Below, one piece after another: positions 27,541-55,664 of a DNA stretch of 64,000 bases. Under the pieces are notes generated by a model. It saw nothing but the letters and a program-made list of their open reading frames with translations. It did no database searches and was not told where the DNA came from. The stretch is from a virus. The translations under genes were made by a program, and so were the position numbers. Position 1 is the stretch's first letter. Each line of letters starts with the position of its first letter. The stretch lies in IMG/VR virus record IMGVR_UViG_3300025154_000073, positions 1 to 64,000 of that record; one strand, written 5' to 3'.

Positions 27541-28041
27541 ATTCCTTTCTGATTATTTTATGACAGAATCATCCTAAGACTTCCTAATTAGCCACTCAGA
27601 TTCTTTAAAGAACCTCTACCCTATTAGGGTCAAGTAGGACTATTCATCCTGGACGTGGGCGGATTTATAACGGCGTACCGTCTCACCTTTCGGGATTCTC
27701 TGTTAGAGACACCCGCCCCGCCTGCCTCTGTGCTTTGACGCGGGGACGTTGTTGGGAGTCCTGCCACTCGGTTACTTAGTAGGCAGACTGCAATCTCTTT
27801 ATCGTATGAGAGCCTGTTTCGCTCAAAAATGTATTTTCGGATTAGGCAGGATTGCTAGTTGCTGTTCCGTTAAACGCAAAATCCAGTTTTGACAACTGCG
27901 GCTCTGGCGGCTAAAAGAACTACCGCTCGCGCGGATATGGAAGGGATACCATAGCCGCAGTTGTCAAAACTGGATAATGTCGAAGTTAATATGTTCATTT
28001 GTCCTTTTAGCCTTTCGCGCTTCCACACGCTTTTCCTTACT
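27541..28041 (-). ncRNA. Candidate large structured non-coding RNA A (about 500 nt)
   Basis: No convincing gene occupies this stretch. On the - strand it holds a perfect 23-bp inverted repeat (27881-27903 with 27953-27975) whose loop carries two further hairpins, one with a GCGA tetraloop (27923-27934) and one at 27937-27952. More hairpins lie at 27697-27709 and 27618-27630, and a CC-GAAA-GG tetraloop stem near 27688. GNRA loops appear only when read on the - strand, giving the sense. A sigma-70-type promoter sits just upstream (28048-28076). The size recalls large phage RNAs such as ROOL, but I cannot confirm a family. No clear U-tract terminator ends it; it may lead into the gene at 27536. 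Confidence 0.6.
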
Positions 28042-30307: not shown

Positions 30308-31075
30308 CTATTTCTTCAATTCTCCTTCCCATAAGATACCATCCTGACCATGAAGCCTCCATAGTTTTCCGTCAAAGGATGGGACTAATCCCACATTCCA
30401 TAAATCAACTGCTGGTTGATATGGATACGTCTTTTTCCAATCTTTTACAATGGGCACAAAAATACTGACCGTATAAGCCCACACAGAATCTCTCACAGAA
30501 TCTCTCACAGAATCCCACACAGAATTCCACACAGAATTCCACACAGAATTCCACACAGAATTCCACACAGAATTCCCCACAGAATTCCCCACAGAATTCC
30601 ACACAGAATTCCACACAGAATCTCTCACAGAATCTCTCACAGAATCCCACACAGAATTCCACACAGAATCCCACGCTTTAAGCAATTCCAATTCCTTTGA
30701 ACTGATTTTCCCATGTTTTAATGTAAATGGATTTAGTGGGCTGGCAGCTTTCAGATAATCCCATTTGAATAACGTTTCTGGTTTTACTTCCCGTTCTATT
30801 CTCAAGAATTCAAATCCCGCCTTATCCGATTCTTCGAGTACTGGAGTTCCATACACGATGTACGCAGAACATGGTATGGATGCTCCGATAAAGCATTGAT
30901 CTGGTTTTCGGCTGGCGTGAAGAAACGCATTTGAACATAACCTTCCAGTTTCGGAGAAATGTGGTGCGTACACATCCCACCCGACACTTTCTCGGTAGTT
31001 TATGGTTTTTCCTGTGTAAAAGTCAAAACCATCTGGTCTTGCGAGTTTGTAGAACTTTTGTAGTTTTGTTTTCAT
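30308..31075 (-). CDS. Tetrapeptide-repeat protein A
   Basis: A 255-residue protein in three parts. Residues 1-134 form a globular domain. Residues 135-198 are 16 four-residue units of the type [W/R/G][D/N]SV (WDSV WNSV WDSV RDSV ...). The end (QPAVDLWNVGLVPSFDGKLW) is a second globular piece. The protein at 33087-33905 shares the layout, including the ELLKAWDSV junction and the PSFDGK.WRLH end. A repeat of period four could make an amphipathic solenoid or filament. I know no function for it. Confidence 0.75.
   Translation of the reverse strand: MKTKLQKFYKLARPDGFDFYTGKTINYRESVGWDVYAPHFSETGRLCSNAFLHASRKPDQCFIGASIPCSAYIVYGTPVLEESDKAGFEFLRIEREVKPETLFKWDYLKAASPLNPFTLKHGKISSKELELLKAWDSVWNSVWDSVRDSVRDSVWNSVWNSVGNSVGNSVWNSVWNSVWNSVWNSVWDSVRDSVRDSVWAYTVSIFVPIVKDWKKTYPYQPAVDLWNVGLVPSFDGKLWRLHGQDGILWEGELKK
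30482..30673. repeat. 12-bp tandem repeat array in protein A
   Basis: About 16 units of 12 bp (variants of ACAGAATTCCAC / ACAGAATCTCTC), all in frame. Units carrying GAATTC dominate. The array is open in several frames, so long spurious reading frames appear on both strands. Confidence 0.9.
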
Positions 31076-31549: not shown

Positions 31550-31844
31550 TTGTCAACCTCCTGAGAATGCACGGTGTTTTCTCTGCCATCTTTCGGACGG
31601 CTTCAACCACGTCTTGTTCTGTTGCTTCAAGATAGTCCAATTCCAGGATTTTGCATAAAGTGACCATGAGGGACTCGTGAGCGTTGAACAACTCCTCTTT
31701 TGTCGGTTTGTCTTCCGATTCGTGAGGAGTTTTAGGACAGTACCACTCTTTAGTCCAGGGGTCTTGCACAAGATCGCCGTCGCAAATACGGCAATGCTTT
31801 TCTGAGCCGAACGGGTCGGCGTTTTGGTCATAATTAACTCTCAT
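31473..31844 (-). CDS. Zinc protein with C-terminus extended through a palindrome copy
   Basis: The frame codes 123 residues: HCRICDGDL (17-25) and WYCPKTPHES (34-43) form a zinc site, followed by a helix (TKEELFNAHESLMVTLCKIL). After KMAEKTPC it runs through the palindrome at 31564-31582 and overlaps the next gene by 77 nt in another frame. The last 30 residues are therefore probably not ancestral; the element seems to have removed the original stop. Confidence 0.55.
   Translation of the reverse strand: MRVNYDQNADPFGSEKHCRICDGDLVQDPWTKEWYCPKTPHESEDKPTKEELFNAHESLMVTLCKILELDYLEATEQDVVEAVRKMAEKTPCILRRLTNDLKNSYRKNRQRHSLHRVIYNTWQ
31564..31582. promoter_or_regulatory. Boundary palindrome copy 9 (AGAATGCACGGTGTTTTCT)
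   Basis: Same variant arm as copy 5. It lies 14 bases before the start at 31549, with the AGGAGG ribosome site between them. Confidence 0.75.
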
Positions 31845-32550
31845 AATCAGTCTCCTTTTTGAAATTTAGCGGTCTGTCTATTTTATTTTCAATTATATAT
31901 TTATCATACGCAATTGCAGCATCAATTTCGTAAACATACGACCCCACATAACAGCGATTAGATTTTCCCTTTAACCTAAATCTACAATACCACCTATTAT
32001 GTTTTTCTGAGAAGAATATTCCGAAGAATTTTGATGACGCACTAGAAACTTTCTTTCCGAATCGGGGGTTGTTTTTCCACCCTTGCGCCAACTTCATTTT
32101 TTCTCTTGAGGCGTCTGCTATTTCTTCTCTATTTCTATTTGCTTCTGATATTTTATTGATGGCCTCTTTTGTGTGGTGTTTTCCATACATGGGATTTTTT
32201 TCTTTAGCCTGTGAACAAGACATTTTTGCCTTAGTTTCTTCTGTGCATCTCCCATGCGCTCCGGCATCTTTTTTGTTGTATCCAAATAATTTGTTTTTAG
32301 TGTGGTAAAAATTAATCCAATAATCCTCTCTGTCAACAAGCATTTCTACTGAACATACGTCAATAACTTCAAACAAGAAATTATATTCTCCGTATTTGTT
32401 CCACGCGTTTTGTAGGTGCGCGTTGTGTGCCGTGCCGTTTTTCAATAAAAAAATATGGTCTTTCCATCTATGCTTTATGTCAATAGATTGACCTATGTAG
32501 TTTTTTCCGCTTATTTTATTCATAATACGATAGATTCCGCATATAGGCAT
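31834..32550 (-). CDS. GIY-YIG homing endonuclease with NUMOD3 and AP2-like domains
   Basis: A 238-residue protein. The GIY-YIG nuclease has GIYRI at 5-9 and NYIGQS at about 17-22, with the conserved Arg in KHRWKDH. NUMOD3-type repeats follow (YGKHHTKEAINKISEA). The C-terminus is AP2-like (KFFGIFFSEKHNRWYCRFRL, ending RPLNF). It probably moves itself between sites in phage genomes. The gene at 54894 has the same layout. A pseudoknot-like RNA element overlaps its 5' end. Confidence 0.85.
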   Translation of the reverse strand: MPICGIYRIMNKISGKNYIGQSIDIKHRWKDHIFLLKNGTAHNAHLQNAWNKYGEYNFLFEVIDVCSVEMLVDREDYWINFYHTKNKLFGYNKKDAGAHGRCTEETKAKMSCSQAKEKNPMYGKHHTKEAINKISEANRNREEIADASREKMKLAQGWKNNPRFGKKVSSASSKFFGIFFSEKHNRWYCRFRLKGKSNRCYVGSYVYEIDAAIAYDKYIIENKIDRPLNFKKETDYES

Positions 32551-32566
32551 TGTATATACTTCAAAC

Positions 32567-32668
32567 AAACCACCGCCAATCTGCATTCCGAACTTGTCAC
32601 AGTTGCAGGAGCGCGGCAGACGGGCGGTGGTTTATCTCGGAATAAAAAATCTCCTGTGAAACTGTGAC
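32567..32668 (-). ncRNA. Pseudoknot-like element before the homing endonuclease
   Basis: Two stems interleave: AAACCACCGCC (32567-32577) pairs with 32623-32633, and GTCACAGTT.GCAGGAG (32596-32611) pairs with 32651-32668 with a small bulge. The order b', a', b, a makes a pseudoknot if all pair. Its 3' part lies 16 bases before the ATG at 32550 on the - strand. It may control translation or mark the insertion site. Confidence 0.45.
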
Positions 32669-33086: not shown

Positions 33087-33905
33087 CTATTTTGTACATT
33101 CAAAGACGATCTCGGCATTTTTCCCTGAGTGTAATCTCCATGTTTTTCCATCAAACGATGGCACAAATCCTCGCTTCCATAGATCAACACAAGGCTGAAA
33201 TTCATAATTGTTATCCCAAATATAAAATAAACTTCCGATGTAAGCCCCCACAGAACCCCCCACAGAATCTATCACAGAATTCCCCACAGAATTCCACACA
33301 GAATCTCTCACAGAATCTATCACAGAATTCCCCACAGAATTCCCCACAGAATTCCCCACAGAATCCCACACAGAATTCCACACAGAATTCCCCACAGACC
33401 CCCCCACAGAACCCCCCACAGAATCTCTCACAGAATTCCACACAGAATCCCACACAGAATTCCACACAGAATTCCACACAGAATTCCCCACAGAATCTCT
33501 CACAGAATCTCTCACAGAATCCCACTGCTTTAATAATTCAATGTCTTTTTTTGTGGGCTTTGATTTATTGGCTAGTGGATTGATTGGATTTTGCGCTTCC
33601 TTGATATTAATTAATGGATATACCTCCTTTTTCCACTTCTTAAGGGAGCGCAGAGCCTCTGCTGAGTGTGAAGCAGACCACCATGACGGAATATCTTCTT
33701 CATCAACATTCAATGTCCAATCGCAATCTGGATATAAATATCCTTTATCTGGTGTGATCTCCACCTTTACGGAATTTCTAGATGCTTCTTTCAGTTCTGG
33801 GTACTTAGACAGATATCTAGAATACAGCGTGTCGTGAGAGGAAATGCCGCGCTCCCAAATTACTTGGTGACTTCTTGTTACAATACATGAAAAATCTTTA
33901 CACAT
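33087..33905 (-). CDS. Tetrapeptide-repeat protein B
   Basis: A 272-residue paralogue of the protein at 30308. The N-terminal domain (1-127) differs. Residues 128-219 are 23 units such as WDSV, RDSV, GNSV, GGSV and IDSV. The end QPCVDLWKRGFVPSFDGKTW matches protein A. So the repeat and the C-terminal module are shared while the N-terminal domain is exchanged, which suggests one scaffold with two specificities. Confidence 0.75.
   Translation of the reverse strand: MCKDFSCIVTRSHQVIWERGISSHDTLYSRYLSKYPELKEASRNSVKVEITPDKGYLYPDCDWTLNVDEEDIPSWWSASHSAEALRSLKKWKKEVYPLINIKEAQNPINPLANKSKPTKKDIELLKQWDSVRDSVRDSVGNSVWNSVWNSVWDSVWNSVRDSVGGSVGGSVGNSVWNSVWDSVGNSVGNSVGNSVIDSVRDSVWNSVGNSVIDSVGGSVGAYIGSLFYIWDNNYEFQPCVDLWKRGFVPSFDGKTWRLHSGKNAEIVFECTK
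33249..33524. repeat. 12-bp tandem repeat array in protein B
   Basis: About 23 in-frame units of 12 bp. Unit order differs from the array in protein A, although the unit types are the same. Such arrays change length by slippage. Confidence 0.9.
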
Positions 33906-34322: not shown

Positions 34323-34622
34323 AGTTTTCAGCCTCTCGGTTTCGGTTTTGACATTCGTACTAGGTAGCGGGAGTCGCGCTCGAAGCGACCTCAATGCTGA
34401 GTTTATGAAACTCGCTCTGACCCATGCCAGCCTCCCGCAGTGTTTATTTCTTTCTGCCTTCGCTTAGGTCATAACTCCTAAGCCTTGAAAAACACTTGTG
34501 GGCGGAGCATTGTCTTTTTGCTCACGGGCTTTGACTTCGCCTGCTTCATTCAACATAGTTGAATTGCGCCCACATTTTTAATATATCACGATTGCGCTCT
34601 CTTAGGATTAAATCTTCCTAAG
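34323..34622 (-). ncRNA. Candidate structured RNA B (about 300 nt)
   Basis: Non-coding stretch with many paired segments: a closing stem TGTGGGCG (34497-34504) with CGCCCACA (34567-34574), an inner hairpin at 34548-34564 (ATTCAAC), and hairpins at 34463-34482, 34399-34413, 34373-34389 and 34601-34622. On the - strand it begins right at the stop of the gene at 34618 with AACACTTAGG, the same words found at the start of candidate RNA C. No known family recognised. Confidence 0.5.
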
Positions 34623-35038: not shown

Positions 35039-35128
35039 CGGTTCATCCCCACGTGTGTGGGGAATACCATGGCAGGAATATAGTCACTGTCTCTTGACAC
35101 GGTTCATCCCCACGTGTGTGGGGAATAC
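35039..35128 (-). CRISPR. Two-repeat, one-spacer CRISPR mini-array, type I-E-like
   Basis: Identical 29-bp repeats at 35039-35067 and 35100-35128 flank a 32-bp spacer (35068-35099), exactly the type I-E unit size. The repeat has the CCCCAC/GTGGGG stem and on the - strand ends in ATGAACCG, close to the E. coli crRNA handle ATAAACCG, so the crRNA sense is the - strand. No cas gene is in the window. It would need a host Cascade. The right repeat is joined to a zinc-ribbon reading frame. Confidence 0.85.
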
Positions 35129-36069: not shown

Positions 36070-36104
36070 GGTATCTCCTTTTTCTGGCGGGTGATTGGGT
36101 TGCC

Positions 36105-39152: not shown

Positions 39153-39210
39153 TGTCGTATCTCCTGTTGTGTATGTGGTGGTGATTAGTCACCTGTGTTT
39201 GATTGACTAC

Positions 39211-40960: not shown

Positions 40961-41691
40961 GAATGCGCCTGATGGTGATTGAAGGCGCGCCCTCAGTATA
41001 GCAATTCTTTATGTCAGAGTGGGTTTCTGTGTAAATCGTCCAACTTTGCGGGTATCCATATTTTTCTAGGCTTCCCGTAAATCGCGTGAAAGAATTTCCC
41101 TTTTACGCCTAAATCTTTGCATTTTGGATTTTCTTTCAACTTCTCGACAACGTGTTTTTTCATGTCATCTTTAATCTCGGCTTCGAGCTTCTTGATGTTC
41201 TCGTCAACATCTTCGGATTTGCCAGAGAACTCGGCTTCAATTTCAAGTTTGCGTTGCGCGATTTGGGCGTACACATCTTTGGTCTGTTGTTCGATTTCTG
41301 CTTGCAAAGCCCGTTTCTGGATTACAAGAGCCTCAGTTGCGATGTTTTCGTTTTCTCGTTTCTTAGCCACAATTGCTTGGCGTTGTTTCTCAATATCCGT
41401 AAACTTAGCCATTAGTTCTGTGCGTTGTCGGTCTATTTCTGCAAGCGCGATCTTGAATTCTTCCGGTACGACGATCTCCGCGATTTCCTTGTCAACATCC
41501 GCGTTGAACGCATTGATAGCCGCACGAGTCTTTGCTTCAAGTTCGGACGCCTGTTTCATCCCGTTACTGACAACAATCTCAATTTCGGCAGGAATCTTAA
41601 CTTCGTCAAGAAGTTTGCTTTTGTCAAGTTCGAGCAAATCTTTTTGTGCGTGGAACTCAGCAAGCAGGTCTAACTTTTGTTCGATTTCCAT
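40956..41691 (-). CDS. Coiled-coil protein with apparent +1 frameshift
   Basis: The zero frame codes 225 residues, mostly a long coiled coil (KRALQAEIEQQTKDVYAQIA), and stops at 41014. Past the run AAAAGGGAAA at 41095-41104 the +1 frame is open and protein-like (SFTRFTGSLEKYGYPQSW ... TEGAPSITIRRIQ) and ends at 40956-40958, inside a boundary palindrome as other genes here do. So the natural C-terminus is probably the +1 frame. The shift could be programmed or a sequencing or mutational indel. Start ATG 41691 follows AGGAG. Confidence 0.65.
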
Positions 41692-41704: not shown

Positions 41705-41723
41705 TAAATACACGGTGTTTTCT
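41705..41723. promoter_or_regulatory. Boundary palindrome copy 13 (TAAATACACGGTGTTTTCT)
   Basis: Upstream of the coiled-coil gene's ribosome site and downstream of candidate RNA C. Confidence 0.75.
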
Positions 41724-41724
41724 C

Positions 41725-42579
41725 AAGATACTGCCCCGCCGCTCTGCAACCTTTCGCCAGAAACTTCAACATCGCGAGCAGATATTCGGACACGGCGGGG
41801 ATGAAATCGGGCGGGAGGCGCGGGGAAAACTTAATTTCCACTCCATAATTCACTCATTCTCGGCTCGGATTGCTCCGCCGCCCGATATTCATTTGGTAAA
41901 GGTTGAGGCGGGACACGTGGGCTAGGACACAGCCCGCCTCCGATCTTATGTGCAGGCACATGTTTTATCGTTGTTACCTAGTCTGCGCCGGATTTTATTA
42001 CCGGCCTCTTTTGATAAAATATTGAAGTAAAGTTGCTGTCTCTCCAAGCTGTCAAGCCTTCTGTCTAATGCTCTATTGGTTGTACTGGGCTTTCTCTACC
42101 GCAATTACACCTCAGCAATCGGGGCGGCATACTTCTGTCACAGTTGCGCCGCATTCATCGTATCTATTGTGACAATGAAAAATCTTATAAGGGTTCTGCC
42201 CAGCCGTCCTGCTTCTCAGTCAGGCTTGCGCCACCGGCTTACACATGTTTGTTATCTGTGCGTGCGGTACAGGGACCGGCTGGGGTGCTCTAAAACGAGT
42301 ATCGGTTCGGTATTTAGCCTGCCGATATTGTTATCGTCCACTCGTAATATTCTGTTTGCCCCGCCGCCAGTTAAGCCTAACTGATTTCACCGACTGGACA
42401 GCAACGACGGGGACTTTGATCGTGGAGAAGTCTGCTAATCAGGCTTCAAGCGGATAAAGGAGATACCGAAAACCGCCTTAGAACTTCTCCATTGAACAGG
42501 GCTACCCGTTCAATAAATATATCTTATCACAGTCTTGAAAAAGTACATTAATATAAGCTAAGAATTGCCTAATTTTCGG
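41725..42579 (-). ncRNA. Candidate large structured non-coding RNA C (about 850 nt)
   Basis: No supportable gene. Many stems read on the - strand: GAGGCGGG/CCCGCCTC (41905-41912 with 41933-41940), GCCGG/CCGGC (41987-41991 with 42001-42005), ATGTGC/GCACAT at 41948-41961, TGTCACA/TGTGACA (42136-42142 with 42168-42174), a GGC-GCAA-GCC tetraloop stem at 42223-42232, and a hairpin at 42491-42514. It starts at the stop codon of the gene at 42580 with AACACTTAG. The length is in the range of giant ornate phage RNAs such as GOLLD; I cannot confirm a match. Confidence 0.6.
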
Positions 42580-43032
42580 CTAAGTGTTTCTATATATTTC
42601 TCTTTTATCCGATTTTATGGTGAAATCCAGGATTATATGCAGGGCATCAGAAAGGCATATCCCTACGAACCATTGACCGAATTTATCGGGCAAGTGCGCG
42701 GGAAGTCCGAGGTAATTTAGTATAAGTATGGGCAACGCCAGGTATCCTACGCGCAATACTGTACCAAAAAAGATGCTGTGAGATATTACGCTTCGATGTT
42801 TAACGATTTTAGAGTAGGGTAGCCAAAATACGCGCCATGCAAGAGATAGAGGTTTACCAATTATGGGGATTCGCCTGAGATGGTGAAGTCCCAAAAAACC
42901 CTCGTCAATATCCAAGTCCGGCGAGAGGATTAATCCAGACAGGATTCCAACGGTAAGGGCTGGCTCGAAAGCACAAACGCTTCCTAAAGCCAGCCCGATT
43001 GTAGTCATTGAATGCGTTTTTCCAGAAGGCAA
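42580..43032 (-). CDS. DUF2227-like metal-binding membrane hydrolase
   Basis: A 150-residue protein: SGKTHS at 3-8, ILSPDLDIDEG, HRSVISHSIFFG and DALHIILDF. His/Asp pairs and hydrophobic helices fit the DUF2227 (YdjM-type) membrane metal proteins. It ends in AAC ACT TAG as does the gene before candidate RNA B. Confidence 0.7.
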   Translation of the reverse strand: MPSGKTHSMTTIGLALGSVCAFEPALTVGILSGLILSPDLDIDEGFLGLHHLRRIPIIGKPLSLAWRVFWLPYSKIVKHRSVISHSIFFGTVLRVGYLALPILILNYLGLPAHLPDKFGQWFVGICLSDALHIILDFTIKSDKREIYRNT

Positions 43033-43035
43033 ATT

Positions 43036-43233
43036 CTACTCACTCAATCCATATTTGAAAAATAGAACCAAAAACAACACAACCAGGATAACTAGAATCT
43101 GGATGAGCAGAACACCCGCCGCGATTGTTCTTCGAGCCAGTTCTATCTGCTCATCAGTCCATTCGGGAATGCTTGGCTTTACGGGGACTGCGTATAGATG
43201 CCCGTCAGAAGTTCTAAAGTAGTCGTATTTCAT
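43036..43233 (-). CDS. Small membrane protein
   Basis: A 65-residue protein with one C-terminal membrane segment (AAGVLLIQILVILVVLFLVL). The soluble N-terminus is about 35 residues. It is ATGA-coupled to the SH3 protein. Confidence 0.6.
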   Translation of the reverse strand: MKYDYFRTSDGHLYAVPVKPSIPEWTDEQIELARRTIAAGVLLIQILVILVVLFLVLFFKYGLSE

Positions 43234-45669: not shown

Positions 45670-45823
45670 ATGAAAAAATTCAAAGCCGTGCCAGTGGCAC
45701 ACAGTAAAGATGATTTGGGCGGGTACAGGCGGGCATGCGGGGTGGTGTGAATTGGAAAAGTATTGGGTGGCACTTCGCCAGTAACGCAAACCGTTCTACC
45801 GCACTTGCAAACAAAGGAGTCTT
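45670..45823. other. Intergenic stretch with cassette-like leader
   Basis: A weak 26-codon frame (45670-45750) is the only coding candidate. The end has CGCAAACCGTTC, which recurs before the gene at 46205 and, inverted, beside 28785. Confidence 0.35.
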
Positions 45824-54893: not shown

Positions 54894-55664
54894 ATGTGTA
54901 TGAGAAAAACTTCTGGAATCTACTACTATCGAAACAAGATAAATGGAAAAAGATATATTGGTCAAGCCCACAATATTGAAAGGCGATTGCGCGAACACAA
55001 CTATTATCTTATAAAAGGAACAGATAAATGCGCCGCCCTACAAAGAGCAGTCAATAAATACGGAATAGAAAATTTTGAAGTCGGTATACTTGAGGCTTGC
55101 GAACCCGATAAAATGAACGATAGAGAAATCTATTGGATTGACCTGTATAAATCATCCAGCAGGGATGGATATAATATTTCAAATGGCGGAGAAAGCGGGT
55201 TATTTGGATACAAGAGACCGCCAGAGTTCGGGAAAAAGGTTTCTGCCTCCAAAAAGGCGATGCACTTGAAGATGACAGACGAACAAAAGAAGAAAATATC
55301 AGAACTTCATAAAGGAAAGCCAAAGTCAGAAGAAACTAGGCGGAAGATGTCCGAGAATCATTCTAGGTATATGCTCGGAAGAAAACACTCGGAGGAAACA
55401 CTTGCAAAACTTCGCGTTGCTCATGGTGGAAAAAACGCATACCAGTTAGGGAAGAAGTCCCCCAATGCAGCATCTAAATATTTCGGGGTTAATAAACTCT
55501 TGCAAAAAGGTCATACATATTGGGCAGCAAACGTAAAGGCTTTCGGAAAAAGAACTTATGTTGGCATGTCCAAAATCGAAGAAGAAGCCGCCCGTCTCTA
55601 TGATGCCTATGTCACAGAAAACAATCTACCCAACCCGCTAAATTTTCCAGAGGAGATGAAATGA
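54894..55664 (+). CDS. GIY-YIG homing endonuclease
   Basis: A 256-residue protein. GIYYYRNKINGKRYIGQAHN is the GIY-YIG start, followed by RRLREHNYYL. NUMOD3-like repeats (KISELHKGKPKSEETRRKMS; GRKHSEETLAKLRVAH) and an AP2-like end (SKYFGVNKL, LNFPEEMK) follow. Layout as in the gene at 31834. The true start may be ATG 54900. It stands between capsid and later genes. Confidence 0.85.
   Translation: MCMRKTSGIYYYRNKINGKRYIGQAHNIERRLREHNYYLIKGTDKCAALQRAVNKYGIENFEVGILEACEPDKMNDREIYWIDLYKSSSRDGYNISNGGESGLFGYKRPPEFGKKVSASKKAMHLKMTDEQKKKISELHKGKPKSEETRRKMSENHSRYMLGRKHSEETLAKLRVAHGGKNAYQLGKKSPNAASKYFGVNKLLQKGHTYWAANVKAFGKRTYVGMSKIEEEAARLYDAYVTENNLPNPLNFPEEMK

Follow-up and report, generated by a model that had tools for sequence, protein, structure and literature searches.

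The window analysed here is the whole stretch of 64,000 bases, positions 1-64000 of a virus record 73,044 bases long, and its gene content (tape measure, endolysin, and terminase large subunit) is that of a tailed phage. Within it, 888 gene-free bases separate a DUF2227 gene from a downstream gene for a 225-aa protein (Table 1). A first-pass annotation made from the sequence alone had called positions 41725-42579 the longest gene-free stretch and proposed that they encode a large RNA (RNA C) on the minus strand. The stretch is real, and its freedom from genes is borne out, while its proposed ends proved slightly off; that it is the longest holds true provided that small open reading frames (ORFs) elsewhere count as genes. 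There is no ORF of at least 50 aa on the minus strand of the gene-free stretch, and plus-strand ORFs reach up to 102 aa with negative codon-use scores. None of the seven small ORFs of the stretch exceeded a Pfam curated cut-off or matched a PHROG, the single sub-threshold Pfam match among them having an E value of 0.026. A recoded gene was considered and rejected: minus-strand open frames span at most 85 codons when TAA or TGA is read, one frame spans 107 codons when TAG is read, and the phage genes use ordinary stops.

Table 1. Features of the locus between and including the two flanking genes, in window coordinates
Feature	Position	Strand	Details	Basis
DUF2227 gene	42580..43032	-	upstream neighbour; TTG start	Pfam PF09988, E 1.3e-15
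Likely promoter	42523..42551	-	TTAATG (42551-42546), 17 nt, GATAAG (42528-42523)	same pattern in relatives
Hairpin 1	42492..42513	-	9 bp, loop UAGC	pair probability 0.96
Forked hairpin	42423..42491	-	10-bp outer stem, inner GCGG/CCGC hairpin, second loop CUGAUUA	counterparts in L005, L007
Predicted closed core	41734..42412	-	679 nt; P1 42412-42403/41743-41734, 10 bp	long-range helix counts
Core domain I	42196..42401	-	P2 11 bp (42401-42391/42206-42196), P3 12 bp (42384-42373/42227-42216)	pair probabilities 0.95, 0.97
Core local hairpins	42124..42179	-	42179-42154, 42152-42124	pair probability ~0.9
Core domain III	42044..42122	-	weakly determined	outer pairs, probability ~0.5
Core domain IV	41746..42036	-	8 + 11 bp (42036-42018/41773-41746)	pair probabilities 0.87-0.99
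Helices within domain IV		-	42005-41987; 41940-41905 (8 bp); 41886-41806 (9 bp)	pair probabilities 0.87-0.99
Palindromic element	41706..41719	+	AAATACACGGTGTT; interval between core and 225-aa gene	repeated-site count
Downstream 225-aa gene	41014..41691	-	own Shine-Dalgarno site AGGAGA	ORF

Homologues of the DUF2227 gene occupy the same position in three related phages, L005, L007, and G016, whose terminases are 86%, 71%, and 44% identical to that of the window phage. The stop codon of this gene is a TAG within AACACTTAG (42588-42580), a motif that the first-pass annotation had placed at the start of RNA C and of a second candidate, RNA B. The motif is present in both places (34626-34618 for RNA B), but as the tail of the DUF2227 gene, ahead of the likely promoter, it does not mark where the RNA begins. 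It occurs twice or more in 9 of 100 shuffles, and relatives carry AAACACTTA or AAACGCTTA in its position. At the other end, the 225-aa protein has no Pfam or PHROG match. The palindrome found ahead of its gene (AACACGGTGTT/AACACCGTGTT) has 31 sites in the window at up to three mismatches, where 6.85 would be expected, and these often lie shortly before genes (e.g., 838, 3807, 24005, 36106, 40943, 41706, and 44848); a comparable palindrome, ACACGGTGT, is found in L007 and G016.

The host of this phage is probably an Anaerolineales bacterium, because of a shared mini-array repeat and a spacer match. The window carries a mini-CRISPR (35039-35128, minus strand) with two 29-nt repeats, which we take to be type I-E-like, around one 32-nt spacer (35099-35068). 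Letter-for-letter copies of the repeat occur in 16 bacterial-genome stretches, mostly from Chloroflexota/Anaerolineales; the spacer had no match in the phage collection searched. A spacer of an Anaerolineales bacterium, UBA2395 (L125), is identical to window positions 45768-45799 (plus strand) at 27 of 32 positions, with all five mismatches in the first eight and the 3' 24 unbroken, while the best of 100 shuffled spacers still had 10 mismatches. No relative of the terminase was found in 400 Anaerolineales genomes. The window also encodes two GIY-YIG homing-type endonucleases with NUMOD3 motifs (31834-32586, minus strand; 54894-55664, plus strand), and two genes (30308-31075 and 33087-33905) contain GGAATTCTGTG repeats at 30546-30659 and 33277-33390 (minus strand), which give rise to spurious Rfam microRNA matches; these genes possibly encode related repeat-bearing proteins.

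A likely promoter and a front module common to three phages

Just behind the DUF2227 gene, the minus strand carries a promoter-like element whose pattern, [CT]TAA[GT]G-N17-GATA[AC], is equally placed in L005 (CTAAGG..GATAAA) and L007 (CTAAGG..GATACA). It is not listed by a sigma-70 scan and is a putative promoter. The sequence AAAC[AG]CTTA at or just past the end of the DUF2227 gene is likewise common to the window, L005, and L007. From this promoter, we infer a transcript start at about 42516.

The predicted transcript begins with hairpin 1, which has an equally placed counterpart in L005 and a short one in L007 that is absent from the predicted fold, followed by a forked hairpin with counterparts at L005:5286-5346 and L007:513-576 (both minus strand). 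The three forked hairpins share a layout in which GCGG...UAUCUCCU...CCGC (the UAUCUCCU inner loop lying at 42465-42458 in the window) and a [CU]UGAU loop sit within an outer stem. The letters of this outer stem differ and its pairing is kept: 10 bp in the window (UGGAGAAGUU/GACUUCUCCA), 11 bp in L005 (GGGUAGACGCU/GGCGUCUACCC), and 10 bp in L007 (GGGAGUCCCU/AGGGACUCCC). The fork's second inner stem, clear in L007, is short in L005 and does not form in the window.

In MAFFT alignments of the module the outer stem is misplaced; pairs were therefore not counted on them, and the comparison relies on shuffles and a covariance model. Shuffled flanks matched the outer-stem lengths in 9, 1, and 15 of 2000 trials for the window, L005, and L007, respectively. 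A model built from L007 alone scored the L005 counterpart at 20.2 bits (E 0.021 in 482 kb), with only L007 itself and its other strand above it, and the window site at 12.5 bits (E 0.0077 in 1,101 nt, filters off), the next match scoring 3.7 bits; under default filters, the window site was missed. Conserved pairing thus exists, limited to the front ~100 nt.

The front module is present in three of five DUF2227-bearing phages (the window and 4 of 37 related records) and was not found in the other two, G016 and G010. Two pattern scans of viral_contigs returned 67 stretches, among which inner stem, outer stem, and promoter occur together only in L005 and L007 (plus duplicate contigs). A looser pattern gave 116 stretches, 80 of them among the matches listed; we examined L147 onward plus L007, and among the 115 matches examined, L007 was the only real module. 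The pattern occurred in 7 of 400 Anaerolineales genomes, with 2 control matches, and the letters matched showed no sign of the module.

Complementarity of the front loop to Shine-Dalgarno sites

The sequence of the UAUCUCCU loop complements that of Shine-Dalgarno sites (AGGAGAUA). Because AGGAGA is the usual Shine-Dalgarno site of this phage group, including the module-less G008, complementarity over 6 to 7 nt is expected, and only longer matches hint at targets. The longest match in the window apart from the loop itself, 12 nt (AAAGGAGATACC), lies directly before an ATG (36081, minus strand). Matches of 9 nt occur at Shine-Dalgarno sites at 39165 and 38021 (minus strand) and also at 33749 and 53898, which are not such sites. 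In L005, all three 9-nt matches fall at Shine-Dalgarno sites, and the gene immediately following the RNA stretch has a site that complements the loop over 9 nt (GGAGATACG); by inspection, the corresponding complementarity in the window covers 6 nt only.

Predicted long-range helices on the minus strand of the core

Folding from the predicted start yields an orderly arrangement of hairpin 1, the forked hairpin, and one closed structure, the core, whose ends were taken from its own outermost closing helix. The first-pass annotation had pointed to many paired segments on the minus strand, and helix counts place these beyond chance. We counted confident helices (P>0.7) of at least 9 bp and called those spanning at least 100 nt long-range. 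The 825 nt from the predicted start to the next gene contain seven such helices, four of them long-range, whereas 60 shuffles average 1.0 and 0.5 and 58 genome windows average 1.3 and 0.6; none of either set reaches the counts of the 825 nt. The core contains five, again with four long-range, and these counts were reached by none of 150 dinucleotide shuffles, 160 further shuffles, and 246 genome windows from both strands. Across 24 threshold settings, the core count was reached by 0 to 15 of 160 shuffles and 0 to 45 of 246 windows, the loosest setting being the weakest. On the plus strand, the core forms one long-range helix, a count reached by 26 of 40 shuffles. It is mainly because of this excess of minus-strand long-range helices over shuffles and genome windows that we regard the body as a real RNA fold.

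Free energy by itself is only mildly low. For the whole stretch z is -2.9; for the core it is -3.34 with 20 shuffles but -2.34 with 160 (1 of 160 lower), 4 of 246 genome windows beat the core, and a coding control stretch (42580-43233) has a z of -2.39. Local energies in 300-nt windows across the stretch are unremarkable. The GCAA tetraloop stem noted in the first-pass annotation is present (GGC-GCAA-GCC, 42232-42223, in domain I), as is a second GCAA loop on a 4-bp stem (41877-41866, domain IV); three GNRA hairpins are not unusual, being reached by 102 of 500 shuffles.

We found no homologue of the core by blastn in 50,697 phage records and 72,556 plasmids, by DNA search of 37 related records, or by blastn and nhmmer against the phage loci compared here. 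The fold of the core is therefore judged from one sequence, and what looks like a functional RNA in a single occurrence could have arisen as a fold by chance. No minus-strand terminator is predicted at the 3' end of the core.

The same slot in related phages

What follows the front module differs among the three phages. In L005, it is followed by a tRNA-Ile gene and, beyond this, by an element in which the acceptor stem and T-arm of a tRNA enclose an enlarged middle; in L007, it precedes ordinary small genes, so front module and core are separable. Two RNA-like elements, L005:4893 and L026:6447 (both minus strand), have a proper acceptor stem and T-arm with an enlarged or replaced middle, and ARAGORN calls neither a tRNA nor a tmRNA; a third near L026 6985 (minus strand) was seen by eye only. 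A tRNA-like T-arm was looked for within RNA C and not found, and there are no tRNA genes in the window or the rest of the record.

In G016, the DUF2227 gene and a small gene are followed by ~1.3 kb with no convincing gene, in which a 9-bp helix (GGGGGACAT/ATGTCCCCC, P>0.7) closes 1,035 nt. None of 40 shuffles of this stretch folds as well, while its helix count was reached by 2 of 40 and its long-range count by 8 of 40. RNA C shows no sequence similarity to the G016 stretch or to the window's remaining gene-free stretches, and homology to them was rejected. We read the slot behind the DUF2227 gene as one that takes RNA genes, with G016 possibly holding a second large RNA there.

Other stretches in this phage group also look like structured RNA. 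A gene-free stretch of the window (27585-27835, minus strand) is conserved in G008 (L142:2630-2900, plus strand; 69% over 208 nt), with paired-looking blocks in which 13 of 45 predicted pairs are changed on both sides of the two-sequence alignment; the window stretch has no Rfam match and is possibly a second unlisted RNA. The gene-free stretch L019:3065-4029 (minus strand) is extremely stable (z -11.7, 0 of 16 shuffles), and in a leader of ~300 nt there, a 5' arm (AAAATCTC) pairs the Shine-Dalgarno site of the next gene. A Twister-P5 ribozyme (L015:1718-1772, minus strand; 43 bits, over cut-off) lies in a gene-poor 2.4-kb stretch of a related phage. By eye, RNA B (34497-34574, minus strand) is a closed element whose outer stem (TGTGGGCG/CGCCCACA) encloses three inner hairpins; long helices are not in excess in its 695-nt stretch, the count being reached by 21 of 40 shuffles.

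Interpretation and alternative readings

The stretch is free of genes, its minus strand carries long-range helices beyond chance, and its front module recurs in three phages with a re-paired stem. We somewhat favor the explanation that it is a minus-strand non-coding RNA gene of an Anaerolineales phage, with a promoter behind the DUF2227 gene, a conserved front, and a closed 679-nt body, similar in kind to GOLLD and ROOL. Transcription would proceed on the minus strand from the putative promoter just behind the DUF2227 gene and yield a transcript of ~780 nt, from ~42516 to ~41734. This would open with the front module, a hairpin followed by the forked hairpin displaying the UAUCUCCU loop, and the 679-nt body would fold back into one closed multidomain structure. 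Such an RNA may be made in quantity during infection and act not as a message but as a scaffold or cage of RNA, while its UAUCUCCU loop may link it to ribosomes or phage messages through Shine-Dalgarno pairing. Most plausibly, it would work as GOLLD and ROOL do, an analogy drawn from size, setting, and lack of protein and not from kinship. Of the original proposal of a large RNA, a structured minus-strand RNA remains the best reading; membership of a listed family, a start at AACACTTAG, and core pairing backed by comparison found no support. Of the two outcomes that the first-pass annotation named as refuting it, neither occurred: no protein matched, and pairing is conserved, if only across the front ~100 nt. 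The large-RNA reading is likely, although for the main body it draws on one sequence.

A serious rival, if on balance an improbable one, is that the 825 nt are the 5' untranslated leader of the 225-aa gene, in which pairing of the UAUCUCCU loop with AGGAGA controls translation or the structure shields the transcript from termination. The gene lies on the same strand, starts 43 nt behind the core, and has no terminator ahead of it; the L005 loop is complementary to the next gene's Shine-Dalgarno site over 9 nt, and the arm in L019 pairs such a site. Against this, the best site of the window loop, the 12-nt match before the ATG at 36081, belongs to another gene, the 225-aa gene has its own palindromic element and Shine-Dalgarno site, and what follows the module is an RNA core in one phage, tRNA genes in another, and small genes in the third.

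It is also rather doubtful that the front ~95 nt alone form a functional anti-Shine-Dalgarno small RNA (sRNA) that targets messages of the phage or the host, with the following 700 nt being unselected DNA or the remains of an RNA gene in a slot that takes up such genes. Conservation is indeed confined to the front, the core has no homologue, and the energy of the remaining 704 nt is unremarkable (z -1.41; 7 of 60 shuffles lower). The long-range helices of the core are nonetheless strand-specific and had no equal among 160 shuffles or 246 genome windows, and short complementarity to AGGAGA is ordinary in the whole phage group.

More speculatively, and with little probability in our estimation, RNA C would represent a new family of large phage RNAs that unites scaffold and translational control. 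In this proposal, the closed 679-nt body would form an RNA-only particle, and the exposed UAUCUCCU loop on every copy would capture Shine-Dalgarno sites of phage messages or mimic the ribosomal anti-Shine-Dalgarno end, so that early messages are gathered or silenced. Several phages of the group would then carry RNAs of this sort behind DUF2227, among them the ~1-kb one of G016.

Size, the phage genome, and the tRNA genes that a relative carries in this slot would fit a divergent GOLLD, ROOL, other listed large RNA, or intron family, yet we consider this very unlikely. Rfam gave no match at gathering threshold or at E<=1 over the window, and at E<=10 over the stretch it gave only three chance microRNA-type matches. 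Kinship with GOLLD or another large-RNA model, raised in the first-pass annotation, was searched for directly: in the 73-kb record, the GOLLD model (RF02032, cut-off 150 bits) found nothing at E<=10, nor did that for ROOL (RF03087, cut-off 99.1 bits). In control searches, GOLLD matched in 5 of 14 genomes, none over cut-off; none of the 14 gave a ROOL match, so the negative for ROOL has no positive control behind it. There is no Rfam match for the catalytic core of a group I or group II intron, and because the DUF2227 gene ends naturally, as in relatives, no intron interrupts it.

A DNA element such as a replication origin or packaging site, with inverted repeats that merely resemble RNA, would suit a gene-free stretch with a palindromic element at one end but is hardly credible, given the promoter-like module that precedes the stretch, the imperfect 8- to 12-bp arms 200 to 680 nt apart that are typical of RNA folds, and the long-range helices that, because of G-U pairs and context, form on one strand only.

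Comparison with known systems

This phage group seems to hold many structured RNAs that are not listed, and a further, unrelated large phage RNA with a module pointing to Shine-Dalgarno sites would, if true, offer a concrete handle on function in the messages or ribosomes bound. In the titles and opening lines of abstracts on large ornate RNAs, anti-Shine-Dalgarno sRNAs, Chloroflexi phages, and phage mini-arrays, RNA C is not described.

Phage-derived sRNAs and a large bacterial RNA offer two partial parallels. A review of phage-derived sRNAs exists (excerpt of PMC12197685); RNA C resembles sRNAs that pair with Shine-Dalgarno sites in the complementarity of its front loop but differs in that its module is joined to a large body in the window and has no Rfam match. 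OLE RNA, a large ornate bacterial RNA of ~600 nt (excerpt of PMC9723947), is comparable in size and elaboration, whereas it is bacterial and not of phage origin, and RNA C lacks an Rfam match.

The closest systems are GOLLD and ROOL, large ornate phage RNAs of known structure. An excerpt of PMC12286853 describes them as phage RNAs of similar size near tRNA islands that form RNA-only cages, with no known purpose or protein partner. RNA C shares with GOLLD a phage-borne, non-coding character, a length of several hundred nucleotides, and an elaborate predicted fold, the tRNA setting coming only through its relative L005; it differs in having no covariance-model match and no detected conserved GOLLD 3' region, and in carrying the UAUCUCCU front module. 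It resembles ROOL, a phage and prophage RNA found near tRNA islands (same excerpt of PMC12286853), in its phage origin and length and differs in having no match to the model. Of the extensive, covariation-backed structure that marks such RNAs as a kind, RNA C shows structure beyond chance in one sequence and covariation in its front module only.
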